A DNA stretch of 61,200 nt from a virus. Location: IMG/VR virus record IMGVR_UViG_3300023184_009672, positions 1-61,200 of that record; one strand, written 5' to 3'. Of the stretch, positions 9,477 through 52,358 are shown in pieces. The notes under the pieces were generated by a model. The model had not been told where the DNA came from and made no database searches. It worked only from the letters and a program-made list of their open reading frames with translations. Made by a program: the position numbers and the translations under genes. Positions within the stretch are counted from its first letter, which is position 1; every line of letters begins with the position of its first letter.

Positions 9477-10409
9477 ATGGGACAAGAAAATTATTCACAG
9501 ATAGTTGGACAAGAAAAAACAAAGAGCAAGCTCAACTTCTTATTAGAAGGATTCAATCAGACTAAGGTTATGCCTCATTTACTTTTTGTTGCTCCAAGAG
9601 GATGCGGAAAGACTCTTATTGCTCAAGAGACTAGCAAGATAATGAAGCGAGAAAGAAATGTAATTGTTAATTGTTCTACAATAAAGAATGTTAAAAGTTT
9701 CTTTAATCAAATTATGCTTCCTTATGTTTATGATAAAGATACCACAATTATATTCGATGAAGCTAGTGAATTGCCAAGAGATGTTACTATGGCACTTCTT
9801 ACCATCTTGAATCCTAATCAAAATAACTCTAATGATTTTACTTTTGAAGATGGCACTTATACTTTTAGATTCAATCAAAACTCTTTTATCTTTTGCACAA
9901 CAGAGGCTCAAAAGATTTTTCACGCACTTGCTGATAGGTTATATAGAATTGATATGGAAGATTATTCCTATGTTCAATTAGGCAAGATCATTCAAAATAA
10001 TTTAAAATCAAAAAGCCAATTTATAGAAGAAGTTATTATTAGCGAGGTTGCTAGTGTTTGCCGTGGAAACGCTAGGCAAGCTCAGTCTATGGCAAATCAA
10101 ATATCCTCTTATTTGAGCAGTAAAAAATGCAATAAACTCACTAGCGGAGGTTGGAGCGAGATTAAGGGCAAGTTGTCTATCTATCCTCTTGGCCTATCAG
10201 AAATCGAACTTAATGTAATTAAAATTCTAAAAGAACACGGAGAGTTAAGACTAACTAATCTTTCTGCTAAAACCAATCTTACCAGAGATATGTTACAAAA
10301 GAATGTTGAGCTTTATCTTATGAGAAATAGTTTAATTGAAATTCGTCCTACTGGTCGAGCTTTAACTAAAAGAGGTTTCGATTATCATAAGGAGCATTTA
10401 ACTAAATGA
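9477..10409 (+). CDS. RuvB-like AAA+ ATPase
   Basis: 310 aa. Walker A is APRGCGKT (39-46), Walker B IIFDEASE (91-98), followed by sensor 1 (FIFCTTE) and an arginine in ALADRLYRID. The C-terminal winged helix ends NSLIEIRPTGRALTKRGF, like the RTPRGR turn of RuvB. RuvB is the hexameric Holliday-junction branch-migration motor; no RuvA or RuvC is visible here, so it may instead act as a clamp-loader-like AAA+ protein. Start set by the leaderless promoter. Confidence 0.75.
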   Translation: MGQENYSQIVGQEKTKSKLNFLLEGFNQTKVMPHLLFVAPRGCGKTLIAQETSKIMKRERNVIVNCSTIKNVKSFFNQIMLPYVYDKDTTIIFDEASELPRDVTMALLTILNPNQNNSNDFTFEDGTYTFRFNQNSFIFCTTEAQKIFHALADRLYRIDMEDYSYVQLGKIIQNNLKSKSQFIEEVIISEVASVCRGNARQAQSMANQISSYLSSKKCNKLTSGGWSEIKGKLSIYPLGLSEIELNVIKILKEHGELRLTNLSAKTNLTRDMLQKNVELYLMRNSLIEIRPTGRALTKRGFDYHKEHLTK

Positions 10410-30423: not shown

Positions 30424-30503
30424 TTATAAGTCCTTAACTATCAACGAGTTGCGTCGGCAGGGAGGTTGCGTTTGCAAGTCCTTGATATACAATGAGATAT
30501 ATC
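30424..30503. repeat. hairpin-centre-hairpin repeat, copy B
   Basis: Left TAAGTCCTTAAC...ACGAGTTG, centre GGCAGGGAGGTTG (inverted relative to copies A, C and D), right GCAAGTCCTTGATAT... Ends three bases before the -35 of the next gene. Confidence 0.75.
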
Positions 30504-34093: not shown

Positions 34094-34360
34094 ATGAACA
34101 AAATCAAAATCGCAATCATATACGCAACCTCATATCTGAAACACTTCGTCCTTTTCCTCTTGGGGCAAAGGTATTTAATCGAATACAAACCTTATGGCGG
34201 TGAAGAAGCCTTCACTTACATTATCAGCAAGCCTAGCTCTTTTAAGGTGAGCAAAGCTGGCAACAAGCTCTTCACGAGTTTCTGCTTCTCTGGTCGTATG
34301 GATTCTGGCGTGAAGCAATTCCGCTATGATCGTATCGCTGGTGGTCTCTCGCCAGTCTAA
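34094..34360 (+). CDS. hypothetical protein
   Basis: 88 aa. Hydrophobic, positively charged N-terminus (KIAIIYATSYLKHFVLFLLG), then a beta-rich part ending VKQFRYDRIAGG. No family recognised. Stand-alone unit with its own repeat, promoter and terminator. Confidence 0.6.
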   Translation: MNKIKIAIIYATSYLKHFVLFLLGQRYLIEYKPYGGEEAFTYIISKPSSFKVSKAGNKLFTSFCFSGRMDSGVKQFRYDRIAGGLSPV

Positions 34361-34413: not shown

Positions 34414-34439
34414 GGCGAGGAGAAATCCTCGCCTTTTTT
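34414..34439 (+). terminator. rho-independent terminator
   Basis: GGCGAGGA/TCCTCGCC (eight pairs) closed by a GAAA tetraloop and followed by six Ts. Confidence 0.9.
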
Positions 34440-34441
34440 AT

Positions 34442-34469
34442 TTGACTTATAGTTTAGTTATGGTACTAT
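34442..34469 (+). promoter_or_regulatory. promoter of candidate ncRNA 2
   Basis: -35 TTGACT (34442-34447) directly after the terminator, 16-bp spacer, -10 TACTAT (34464-34469). Predicted start about 34475; no start codon follows. Confidence 0.7.
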
Positions 34470-34472
34470 ACA

Positions 34473-34650
34473 GATAGTTCTTTTCTATTATTCGATGGAT
34501 CGGCGTGGTAGCTGTGAGTTTGCAATAACAACTCAGTAGAAACTGGAGACACGCAACAGAAACAACTTTAGGAGACTATCATCCAAAGATTTCTGTCTGA
34601 GCCGAAAGGCGTAGACGAGTTGGGGTAGCGTCCAACACCATCGAGTATAG
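34473..34650 (+). ncRNA. candidate ncRNA 2, branched RNA with pseudoknot
   Basis: Gene-free and bounded by a terminator plus promoter. P1 CGATGG/CCATCG (34493-34498/34638-34643). P2 GCGTG/CACGC (34503-34507/34550-34554), capped by TGAGTT/AACTCA (34515-34520/34530-34535). P3 CAGAAA/TTTCTG (34557-34562/34590-34595) with inner CTTT/AAAG and GGA/TCC. P4 GTCT-GA-GCC-GAAA-GGC-GT-AGAC (34595-34616). P5 GTTGG/CCAAC (34619-34623/34632-34636). The P3 loop ACTATC (34575-34580) complements the 5' end GATAGT (34473-34478), a pseudoknot. No known class recognised. Confidence 0.65.
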
Positions 34651-34651
34651 T

Positions 34652-34849
34652 TTATATTTTATTGCGCCACTTGTCTCTGTGGAAACAAACCCAACTTAAT
34701 AAAGCTTTTTCAAAACCAATATCATGTCCTGCTTTTTCACTTTCAATCCATTTGTGCTTTAAGATTTCTTCTCTTTCGCTCAAGAAGTTTTTATATAATA
34801 ATGAATGACTTAATATACGATCCATATCTTGTTTAATATTATCACTCAT
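34652..34849 (-). CDS. conserved protein with HKWxxSE motif
   Basis: 65 aa. EILKHKWIESEKAGHDIGFEKALLSWV..HRDKWR is a pattern I recognise from short conserved bacterial and phage proteins of unknown function. Convergent with candidate ncRNA 2. A GTGTAATATA on this strand (34866-34875) lies 17 bases before the start. Confidence 0.6.
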   Translation of the reverse strand: MSDNIKQDMDRILSHSLLYKNFLSEREEILKHKWIESEKAGHDIGFEKALLSWVCFHRDKWRNKI

Positions 34850-35016: not shown

Positions 35017-35847
35017 ATGAAAGTAAACGAAATTATCACAGAAAAGTTTATCGAAGCCCTCAACAAAGGCGTATGCCCTTGGCAGAAACCTTGGAAAGTA
35101 TTTGAGATTTGTAATGGCGTTTCAAAGAAGAATTATAGAGGCATCAATCAATTTTTGCTTCGGATGGTTTCCTCTGACGATTTCTTTTTTACATTTAATC
35201 AAATCAAGGAACTAGGTGGCAGGATTAAAACTGGCGCTAAGGCTCACATGGTAGTCTATTACAAACTATTAAAGACAGAAGCTAAGAATGAATTGACCAG
35301 AACTTTCCCGATGATGAGATATTATAAAGTTTTCGGGTTGAGCGATGTCGAGGGAATCAAATGGAAGCAACCAGAGACTCCTAAGTTAGAATTTTCGCCA
35401 ATAGAAGAAGCAGAGAAGTTGATTAACAAGTGTGTGATTCAGATTAAGTATGGTGGTAGTCGTGCCTGTTACTATCCACAAGATCACAAGATTGATTTGC
35501 CTCTCAAAGAAAACTTCAACAGCGTTGAGGAGTACTACTCCACAGCATTTCACGAGATTGGTCACGCTATGCATAAAAGCACAAGTGACGATATCAAAAA
35601 TGGTTTCGGTTCTCAGAATTATAGCAAAGAAGAATTGACCGCAGAGATTTTTGCTAGCCTCTGTCTTAACTTCTGCGGAATTGATTCTGAAAAATGTTTC
35701 AACAATTCTGCCAGCTATCTCTCCAACTGGCTGGGAGTATTAAAGAAAGACATGAACTTTATTATCTCAGCTTCTAGCAAAGCACAAAAAAGATTTGATG
35801 CTTTCCTCGATAAAAAAGATAACGAAGAATTACATATGAATTATTAA
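35017..35847 (+). CDS. ArdC-like antirestriction protein
   Basis: 276 aa. The N-terminal ALNKGVCPWQKPWK plus NYRGINQFLL and ELGGRIKTGAKAHMVVYYK form the ssDNA-binding ArdC/TraC N-domain. The C-terminal AFHEIGHAM (H179, E180, H183) and a downstream ELTAE glutamate form a zincin site. ArdC proteins protect incoming DNA from restriction in the recipient. A likely counter-defence gene, carried as a single-gene unit behind repeat D. Confidence 0.85.
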   Translation: MKVNEIITEKFIEALNKGVCPWQKPWKVFEICNGVSKKNYRGINQFLLRMVSSDDFFFTFNQIKELGGRIKTGAKAHMVVYYKLLKTEAKNELTRTFPMMRYYKVFGLSDVEGIKWKQPETPKLEFSPIEEAEKLINKCVIQIKYGGSRACYYPQDHKIDLPLKENFNSVEEYYSTAFHEIGHAMHKSTSDDIKNGFGSQNYSKEELTAEIFASLCLNFCGIDSEKCFNNSASYLSNWLGVLKKDMNFIISASSKAQKRFDAFLDKKDNEELHMNY

Positions 35848-49581: not shown

Positions 49582-50517
49582 ATGTCAATTATTTGCAAAG
49601 TAGATGGAAAAGAATTTAAAGATGAAAAAAGTCTTCATCTTGCGCTCAGGGGTTATGGGTTAAATAAAGAAAAATATTATCATGAATATTATCCTAAAAA
49701 AGATTTATTGACTGGTGAAACAATAAATTTTAAAACCAAAGAGCAGTATTTAAATAGTGATTTTAATGATAAAAATAATATGAAAAAATGGCTTAAAAAC
49801 CAGTCCATAGAAAAAGCTCAAAAATATTGTAAGTCATTATTAGTCAAGCGTAAAGAAGAAAAGAAAATTATATACTCACCAAACCAAGTAGAGTTAAGGA
49901 CTATTATGAGCCCCTCAGTTATATTCTATAATAAGATTTTTGATGATTATTATGATGTCTGCTCTGAAGTAGGTTTAGAAAATAAGTTCATACATCCTAA
50001 AAATATAGCTCACCAATTTCAAAATAAATTGACAATAAGAGACACAATATATGTTGATACCAGAGAACAAAGTTGGCTTAAATTCAATATACCTTTTGAG
50101 ATTCAGACCCTACCATATGGAGATTATACTTGCTCAAATGATAATTGTAATTGTTATATTGAACGTAAAAGCTTAAGTGATTTCATTAGCACTTTAAGTA
50201 GCGGCAATTTAAATAGGTTTAAAAATGAAATAGAAAAAGCTAAAATTAATAATGCGTATATTGTTGTGGTGATAGAAGAAAAACTACAAAATGCTTTGAG
50301 CTTTCAATATTTACCTCATATTAGTAAAAAAATTAAAGCTACCCCAGAATTTATATTTCATAACGTTAGATCATTAATACAAGATTATAGTAATTTACAA
50401 TTTTTATTCGTAGACGGTAGAGAAGAAATGAAAAGAGTTATAGAATCTATATTGGCTTCAAACTGTTTTTACAAAAAGGTAGATCTTCAATTAGCTTATG
50501 ATCTAAAATTACTATGA
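49582..50517 (+). CDS. ERCC4/XPF-family nuclease
   Basis: 311 aa. YVDTREQ (157-163), PYGDYTC (178-184) and YIERKSLSDF (192-201) form the GDxnERKx3D active site of XPF/Mus81-type nucleases, which cut branched DNA. The N-terminal ~100 residues are unassigned. It overlaps the TerL start, so a role in resolving branches before packaging is likely. Confidence 0.8.
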   Translation: MSIICKVDGKEFKDEKSLHLALRGYGLNKEKYYHEYYPKKDLLTGETINFKTKEQYLNSDFNDKNNMKKWLKNQSIEKAQKYCKSLLVKRKEEKKIIYSPNQVELRTIMSPSVIFYNKIFDDYYDVCSEVGLENKFIHPKNIAHQFQNKLTIRDTIYVDTREQSWLKFNIPFEIQTLPYGDYTCSNDNCNCYIERKSLSDFISTLSSGNLNRFKNEIEKAKINNAYIVVVIEEKLQNALSFQYLPHISKKIKATPEFIFHNVRSLIQDYSNLQFLFVDGREEMKRVIESILASNCFYKKVDLQLAYDLKLL

Positions 50518-52358
50518 TATATTGTCCAGATAAATATATAAAAAAAATAAAAGACGTTAATGCCGAACTTATGGAAATGAAAGGTTTTCTTAACGATAAA
50601 GAAGCAAAAATATCATTGGCAAAATTTTTAAGAGCAAATATTGGGTTTACTACAGAATTGATAAGTGGTGTTAAGTTGGCTCCATATCAAGAATTACATC
50701 TTAAAGCTTTTTTTAATCGTAATTTTAATATGTCTGTTTTTGGTCGTGGTTGTGGCAAGACTTTTACAGCTGCGGTTTTTTGTTTTCTTCAATGTGTATT
50801 TGAACCTAATACAAAAATTTTAATTGCTGGCCCTACGTTTAGAACTGCACGATTTATATTTAATAATTTAGAAAAAATAGTTAGTAGTCCAGGAGCAGAA
50901 TTATTAGCCCAATGCTTTGGCGCAAAATCTAAAAGAAATGATCAATTTGAATGGGAAATAAATGGAGGAAGTATTGTAGCAATTCCTTTAAACGGGGAAA
51001 AAATAAGAGGCTTTCGCGCAAATGTATTAGTTTTAGATGAATTTCTTTTACTTCCAGAAGAAATTATTAAAAACGTTCTTATGCCATTCTTAGTCGCACC
51101 ACAAAATATTAAAGAGCGCATGCAAATTAGAGAATTGGAAGATAAATTAATTGAAGAAGGATCCATGAAAGAGGAAGATAGAATGGTTTTTGCAAACGAC
51201 AGTAAAATGTTAGCTTTTTCTTCTGCGAGCTATACTTTTGAAAATTTATACAAAGTATATACTGAATGGTCTGAAAAAATAATAAATGATGAAAAAGGAG
51301 AAGCATCTTATTTTGTCAGTCAAATAAGTTACGATGCTTTACCAGAGGAAATGATTGACAAGACAATTATAGAAGAAGCCCAATCTGGAGGGGCAAGTCA
51401 TAGTAGTTTTTTGAGAGAATATTGCGCTAGATTTACTGATGGAAGTGATAGTTATTTTAATGCGAAAAAAATGGAAGAATGTACATTAAAGTATAATGAA
51501 AAACCTCATACTCTATTAAAAGGCGAGCCTGGAAAAAAGTATATTCTTGGCATTGATCCAAATATGAGTGATAGTCCTAATGCCGATTATTTTGCTATGG
51601 CAATCTTAGAAATAGACGAAGAAAAAAAACATGGTATATTAGTACATACTTATGCAGGACTTGGTAATTTGAAAAATCATGTGGCTTATCTTTCTTACAT
51701 TATGGATAATTTTAATATAGTTTTAATCATATTAGATAATGCTGGAGCAGATGTATTCACAGCTTCTTGCAATGAATCAGAATTATTCAAAAAACAAAAA
51801 TTAGAAATTAAAACTTTTGATCTTGATTCTGATTTAGAAGGATTAGATTACGAAATGATGATTAAAAATGCTAGAAAAAAATATAATTTAGAAGATAAAA
51901 GAATAGCTTTTAATCAAGTCTTTACAAGTACATTTATTCGTAAAGCTAACGAACATTTACAAGCATGTATTGATTATAAAAAAATATGGTTTGCTAGCAA
52001 AACAGCATCAAATGAAGAATTTTTTAACAACGCAGTTAATCGTGGAGCACCAATAGAATTAATAAAGAGCGAAAACAAGAAAGACTGGACAATATTAGAT
52101 TTTATAGAAGATCAAGACGATTTCATAAATCAAACGAAAAAACAATGTACTCTTGTGGAACATTCTTCTACTAGCAGAGGAAATCAAACTTTTGATTTAC
52201 CTCAACATTTAAAAAGAAGCACTTCTGCGAATAAAGCCAGAAAAGACAATTATTCAGCTTTAATGCTAGCTAATTGGGGGCTTAAGTGTTATTTAGATAT
52301 GATGAATATTCCTCAAGTAGAAGAGCAGTGCACTTTTTCCCCTATAATGATCAAATAA
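50514..52358 (+). CDS. terL: terminase large subunit
   Basis: 614 aa. ATPase: Walker A GRGCGKT (77-83) and Walker B VLVLDEF (171-177). RNase H-like nuclease domain: YILGIDPN (D348) and IILDNAGAD (D408), with a C-terminal Asp region. It drives DNA into the prohead and cuts it. ATGA overlap with the ERCC4 gene. Confidence 0.9.
   Translation: MIYCPDKYIKKIKDVNAELMEMKGFLNDKEAKISLAKFLRANIGFTTELISGVKLAPYQELHLKAFFNRNFNMSVFGRGCGKTFTAAVFCFLQCVFEPNTKILIAGPTFRTARFIFNNLEKIVSSPGAELLAQCFGAKSKRNDQFEWEINGGSIVAIPLNGEKIRGFRANVLVLDEFLLLPEEIIKNVLMPFLVAPQNIKERMQIRELEDKLIEEGSMKEEDRMVFANDSKMLAFSSASYTFENLYKVYTEWSEKIINDEKGEASYFVSQISYDALPEEMIDKTIIEEAQSGGASHSSFLREYCARFTDGSDSYFNAKKMEECTLKYNEKPHTLLKGEPGKKYILGIDPNMSDSPNADYFAMAILEIDEEKKHGILVHTYAGLGNLKNHVAYLSYIMDNFNIVLIILDNAGADVFTASCNESELFKKQKLEIKTFDLDSDLEGLDYEMMIKNARKKYNLEDKRIAFNQVFTSTFIRKANEHLQACIDYKKIWFASKTASNEEFFNNAVNRGAPIELIKSENKKDWTILDFIEDQDDFINQTKKQCTLVEHSSTSRGNQTFDLPQHLKRSTSANKARKDNYSALMLANWGLKCYLDMMNIPQVEEQCTFSPIMIK

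Follow-up and report, generated by a model that had tools for sequence, protein, structure and literature searches.

Genes and signals around the RNA slot

The window, that is, the whole 61.2 kb stretch of the virus record analysed here (33% GC), carries genes for rIIA, DNA ligase, a clamp-loader and terminase (50514-52358), together with seven tRNA genes. The terminase has distant cultured relatives only. The RNA studied here lies 1.4 kb downstream of a tRNA cluster, in a slot between two small genes. The upstream gene (34094-34360, + strand; 88 aa counted from the ATG) is kept in relatives that have the slot, and 20 loci are related to it at 81-92% identity. The downstream gene (34652-34849, - strand) runs convergently and encodes 65 aa. 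This small phage protein, also found at loci L065-L144, resembles the C-terminal tail of DUF4032, namely its last ~28 residues, and scores 23.5 bits against that family, just below the Pfam cut-off of 23.8; its relatives in viral contigs number at least 99. Next to the slot lies a gene (35017-35847) for an anti-restriction protein of the ArdC type, which contains a zincin-like metallopeptidase domain.

An earlier note on this DNA had described positions 34473-34650 as a gene-free stretch preceded by a terminator and a promoter and followed by a convergent gene, and our analysis bears this description out. The only open reading frames of at least 20 aa inside the stretch are two of 28 and 20 aa, both on the opposite strand. 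The intrinsic terminator of the upstream gene (34414-34439, + strand), as read from the sequence, is a GC-rich hairpin with an 8-bp stem, a GAAA loop and a run of T6. It is kept in relatives with changed stem bases, and an automatic scan gave this hairpin for the - strand only. An extended -10 promoter follows (34442-34469, + strand; TTGACT-16-TACTAT, with TG ahead of the -10), and its position is the same and its sequence similar across the carriers of the three RNA classes, A, B and C, that are described below. Because the A of AGUUCUU follows the -10 at about the same distance in the carriers compared, we infer that transcription starts near 34476, at the leader AGUUCUUUU (34476-34484, + strand), which was delimited by comparing slots. 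A U-rich tail (34651-34663, + strand) after the closing stem P1 is the probable transcript end, and the transcript of the window RNA, hereafter class A, likely spans ~34476-34665. By its sequence signals, class A in the lineage of the window has its own predicted promoter and is insulated by the terminator.

The window also contains an ~80-nt dispersed intergenic repeat built around (G/C)C(A/G)ACCTCCCT, with copies at 30459, 34002, 34924, 36885, 38642, 39906 and 40388. Two hairpins, TAAGTTGTTG..CAACGACTTA and CTCGTTGATGGTCAACGAG, border the core, and several copies are located directly upstream of a gene promoter. The core has eight matches against 0.34 expected, including one at 10041 that lacks the hairpins.

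The class A fold and its homologues

The earlier note had folded the stretch by eye into a stem P1 closing several arms, one with a GAAA tetraloop. The minimum-free-energy fold agrees with this reading, with P1 enclosing four arms at -54.3 kcal/mol (z = -3.5; 1 of 200 shuffles equally good), and covariation among homologues supports it. The core of class A, from the 5' to the 3' strand of P1, was delimited at 34485-34650 (+ strand, as all elements that follow) by a covariance model, R2, and by covariation. P1 pairs 34485-34498 with 34638-34650, its 3' strand being placed by the covariation alignment, and 6 of its 13 pairs show two-sided changes. Arm D1 (34503-34554; GCGUG/CACGC) has an inner helix (34516-34520/34530-34534) with one two-sided change. 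In arm D2 (34558-34594) the inner helix has three such changes, and the loop (34574-34581), which contains ACTATC, is not conserved. Arm D3 (34595-34616) carries the GNRA tetraloop (34604-34607), GAAA in the window and GCAA in distant homologues, on invariant pairs, and arm D4 (34619-34636; GUUGG/CCAAC) is invariant as well.

The homologues behind these counts were found in viral contigs. A 15-mer scan returned 63 matches, most of them by chance and three real, which correspond to close homologues at 90-96% identity (L034, L039 and L042). A gapped pattern on arm D2 returned two distant ones, L207 and L208, from phages of ~50% GC. Two-sided changes occur in 10 of the 47 class A pairs (six in P1, one in D1 and three in D2), in an alignment of five distinct sequences of which three are close, so that most of these changes reflect one split. 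The covariation score is 0.283, compared with 0.134 in shuffled and at most 0.051 in slid alignments, and 99.1% of the cells are paired, compared with 91.6% and at most 40.7%, respectively. The fold of L208 reaches z = -7.2, or z = -9.4 when the full outer stem is included. R2 matches the window at 196.1 bits (E 4.7e-54, the window being in the model and the E-values of R2, like those of the model R1 used below, being rough), and it matches six class A records, five of whose sequences it was built from, at 187-196 bits with P1 and D1-D4. Judged from these sequences, the branched class A fold is real, with covariation supporting P1 and the inner helices of D1 and D2; the model of D3, D4 and the outer helices of D1 and D2, which are invariant across homologues, is plausible. 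That a spacer folds in this way by chance is hardly credible: the z-score of -3.5 is modest when taken alone, but covariation, distant homologues and the exact conservation of the slot all speak against it.

We compared the stretch with 4,227 Rfam 15 families and obtained no match at either strict (gathering) or permissive thresholds; the distant homologue L208 gave no Rfam match either. Class A was not found in cultured phages and plasmids, and pattern scans of prokaryotic genomes returned nothing for the RNAs. Four matches in Prochlorococcus phages were discarded as 44-base matches within annotated protein genes, and those at L199-L203, L205, L206 and L209 as chance matches in other sequence. 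The checks that the earlier note had proposed, a search of RNA families and phage metagenomes and a test for covariation, thus favour its view of a non-coding RNA outside the known classes. The window RNA is very probably a real folded RNA, previously uncatalogued, of an uncultured bacterial virus.

A different outcome was obtained for the pseudoknot that the same note had proposed between ACTATC in the D2 loop (34575-34580) and GATAGT at the 5' end of the stretch (34473-34478). As sequence, this match is present only in the window and in L039/L034. The loop reads GACTTTTA in L042, with one mismatch and a wobble against GATAGT, and GACCCCCA and GACCACCA in L207 and L208, with no complementarity; the pairing is lost in homologues with no compensating change. 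GATAGT, in turn, belongs to the promoter region common to unrelated RNAs. In relatives carrying a different RNA, the promoter is followed by an AGTTCTT leader, often with GAT before it; there the leader forms the 5' strand of P1, AGUUCUU pairing with a 3' AAGAACU, while it is unpaired in class A. If transcription starts near 34476, a large part of GATAGT would not reach the transcript, and from the sequence most of it probably lies upstream of the start. On these grounds we rejected the pseudoknot. Nor is the match as improbable as had been supposed, since the probability of a chance match to a given 6-mer in ~170 bases is roughly 4%.

Exchange with a second RNA family

In relatives of the upstream and convergent genes, the order is upstream gene, terminator, promoter, leader, RNA and convergent gene, and the RNA in the slot is mostly a different one. 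By sequence, these other RNAs are one family with the core GCCCAGAGUCUGAGGC: class B measures ~130 nt, and class C, which adds an arm of ~95 nt to the class B structure, is found by R1, the covariance model of B/C, at a rough E of 1e-10 to 1e-16. The alignment of 27 distinct B/C sequences has two-sided changes in 26 of 34 pairs and a covariation score of 0.403, compared with 0.199 after shuffling and no more than 0.114 after sliding; many of the records are closely related and some near-identical, so the independent events are fewer than the 27 records. A loop-loop contact, GACU/AGUC, is likely and is nearly invariant. No Rfam family matched B/C, permissive thresholds included, and cultured phages yielded only one 21-base chance match.

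Several class B members adjoin tRNA genes. At L079, L086 and L088 the class B RNA is followed within a few bases by a tRNA gene that has no obvious promoter of its own, and RNA and tRNA may therefore share a transcript. The apical loop of P5 in L069, L073, L074, L157 and others is palindromic, mostly UCUAGA, with UCAUGA in several class C members. The change from one to the other keeps self-complementarity, as would be expected for a kissing-loop homodimer.

Classes A and B/C share the slot, the promoter, the leader, the single copy and the long closing P1. They differ in architecture, B/C having three arms (and one more in C) against the four of class A, and the likely GACU/AGUC contact and the palindromic P5 loop are features of B/C and not of A. 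Local alignment of A with B was no better than that of shuffles (p 0.3-0.9), and R1 gave nothing covering 34473-34650 with E up to 10 and filters off. R1 does not find class A, and R2 does not find B/C. A GUCUGAG motif and a GAC-containing hairpin loop common to both had raised the possibility of distant homology, which we rejected on the basis of the shuffles and the negative results of both models. By these sequence comparisons, A and B/C are unrelated RNAs.

The borders of the exchange can be read from the comparison of the window with the class B carrier L068. The two sequences are 82% identical up to 34485 and 88% identical from 34658, with no alignment between, which defines an exchanged cassette at 34486-34657 (+ strand). 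R1 has exactly one match in 27 of 27 B/C records and none in three close class A records or in the distant records G031 and G032. Conversely, R2 has one match in each of the six class A records and none in the 27 B/C records. Each of the 33 phage records therefore holds either one A or one B/C RNA and none holds both, as counted on contigs that are possibly incomplete. The loci of the upstream gene that escape truncation at a contig end number 19, and all 19 contain an A or a B/C RNA; some of these loci are near-identical, and the events are fewer than the records. In three of the 19, L192, L193 and L195, one or more small ORFs have been inserted after the upstream terminator, and the RNA is kept downstream of them. 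We found no description of such an RNA exchange in the literature, as covered by open-licence papers.

One reading of these data is that the slot is a hotspot for accessory genes, where recombination occurs at one place because the flanks are conserved, and that A and B/C do different jobs, for example as anti-defence decoys against different host systems. The sharp borders of the cassette, the extra ORFs inside the slot of L192, L193 and L195 and the adjoining ArdC-type gene (35017-35847) would all fit. A hotspot would, however, be expected to produce empty slots, doubles and other contents, whereas there is always one RNA per record and only two RNA types occur, the same pair being found in a distant second lineage. 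We regard this reading as unlikely, if the most serious of the alternatives.

The second lineage comprises L163, which carries class B (record G016), and L207 and L208, which carry class A (records G031 and G032). The phages of L163 and L207/L208 have many proteins in common, the best at ~35-65% identity. Two genes upstream of the RNA are common to both types. One is homologous at 35% identity (E 1e-22); the other, a small one, shows the pattern VV..G....FK..E.A......GWR, which none of 2,000 shuffles reproduced as well. In both, moreover, the RNA is enclosed by the same outer stem, GGUGAA.GGUGAACA / UGUUCACC.UUCA, around a core that is either A or B. Common upstream genes and a common outer stem around different cores indicate that the same exchange took place in this lineage. 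Here the RNA sits in an operon, and neither a promoter-like site nor a tRNA was found near it. Given its stem of 23-30 bp, it is probably cut from the message by RNase III.

Two further readings bear on this arrangement. A riboswitch or leader acting on the next gene would be consistent with the co-directional next gene in L207/L208 and L163; in the window, however, that gene is convergent, and the downstream genes vary by context, also when carriers of A and of B within the second lineage are compared. No conserved co-directional downstream gene was found. Control of an adjacent gene is accordingly disfavoured because the downstream genes differ or are convergent, and we consider the riboswitch very improbable. 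A self-cleaving or self-processing ribozyme is slightly less so. Replacement of one ribozyme class by another is known, and non-homologous exchange, an elaborate invariant core and the operon position in the second lineage would suit such an element. Against it, no Rfam ribozyme matched, one long P1 closes both ends and is followed by a U-rich tail in the first lineage, and no gene is placed so as to need cleavage. The ribozyme thus remains improbable.

Possible roles and known phage RNAs

Selected folds, one copy per record, mutual exclusivity, exact borders and recurrence in two lineages are the observations that an explanation has to accommodate. From position and exclusivity we infer that A and B/C share a function. 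The explanation that we favour, and hold to be somewhat better than an even prospect, is that class A is a stably folded RNA acting in trans, and that A and B/C are interchangeable, filling one and the same role through their folds, most likely by binding a macromolecule. Class A would be made from its own promoter in the lineage of the window, and in the second lineage RNase III would free the RNA from the operon message. The partner during infection would be a macromolecule of host or phage origin, either a protein or the ribosome, for which both RNAs would serve as a scaffold or decoy. Antisense action seems less attractive, since no invariant single-stranded seed was noted outside the structured core. 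More tentatively, and with somewhat less than even confidence, we propose that a single phage task, essential or nearly so, is solved by either of two unrelated RNAs, which have been cleanly swapped in at least two lineages, and that this task lies outside the known roles of phage RNAs.

The phi29 pRNA, a branched packaging RNA of 174 nt, is similar to class A in size and in its branched fold. A pRNA-like role in replication or packaging, which different folds can fill, would suit an RNA of ~170 nt that is branched, in single copy and apparently restricted to phages, as class A is. Unlike pRNA, however, class A belongs to another phage group and is away from the packaging genes, far from the terminase gene at 50514-52358. 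It also has no match in Rfam, a library that includes the phage pRNA, and no cultured phage carrier was found. We judge this role improbable, though marginally less so than the ribozyme.

Other known phage RNAs resemble class A by location. RNA C (rnaC, species 1, 139 nt) and RNA D (rnaD, 119 nt) of T4 are structured RNAs near tRNA genes that are expressed in infection and have no assigned function (PMC9697503). They are like the window RNA in being small, structured and tRNA-adjacent. T4 carries rnaC and rnaD together, side by side, unlike A and B/C, which occur one per record, and rnaC has a hairpin like the T-arm of a tRNA that class A does not have. As candidate relatives they were rejected, since R1 and R2 give only weak fragments on them. 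ROOL and GOLLD, two ornate RNAs of phages and prophages with distinct sequences and structures, likewise have no assigned function and are often found near tRNA islands (PMC12286853). They are >600-800 nt long, compared with ~170-190 nt for the window RNA, which has neither an Rfam match nor a length above 500 nt by which it could be counted among them.

Taken together, the branched non-coding RNA of no known class that had been read from the single sequence stands, the pseudoknot does not, and the exchangeable cassette was invisible from one sequence. Two RNA families, A and B/C, each with covariation support and neither represented in Rfam, are thereby added to those of phages. The RNAs of phage tRNA islands, such as T4 RNA C and RNA D, ROOL and GOLLD, have long resisted functional assignment, and a test by swapping A and B would make the question directly testable. 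Two unrelated small folds in one slot provide a natural comparison, in which the trait that they have in common would be the function.
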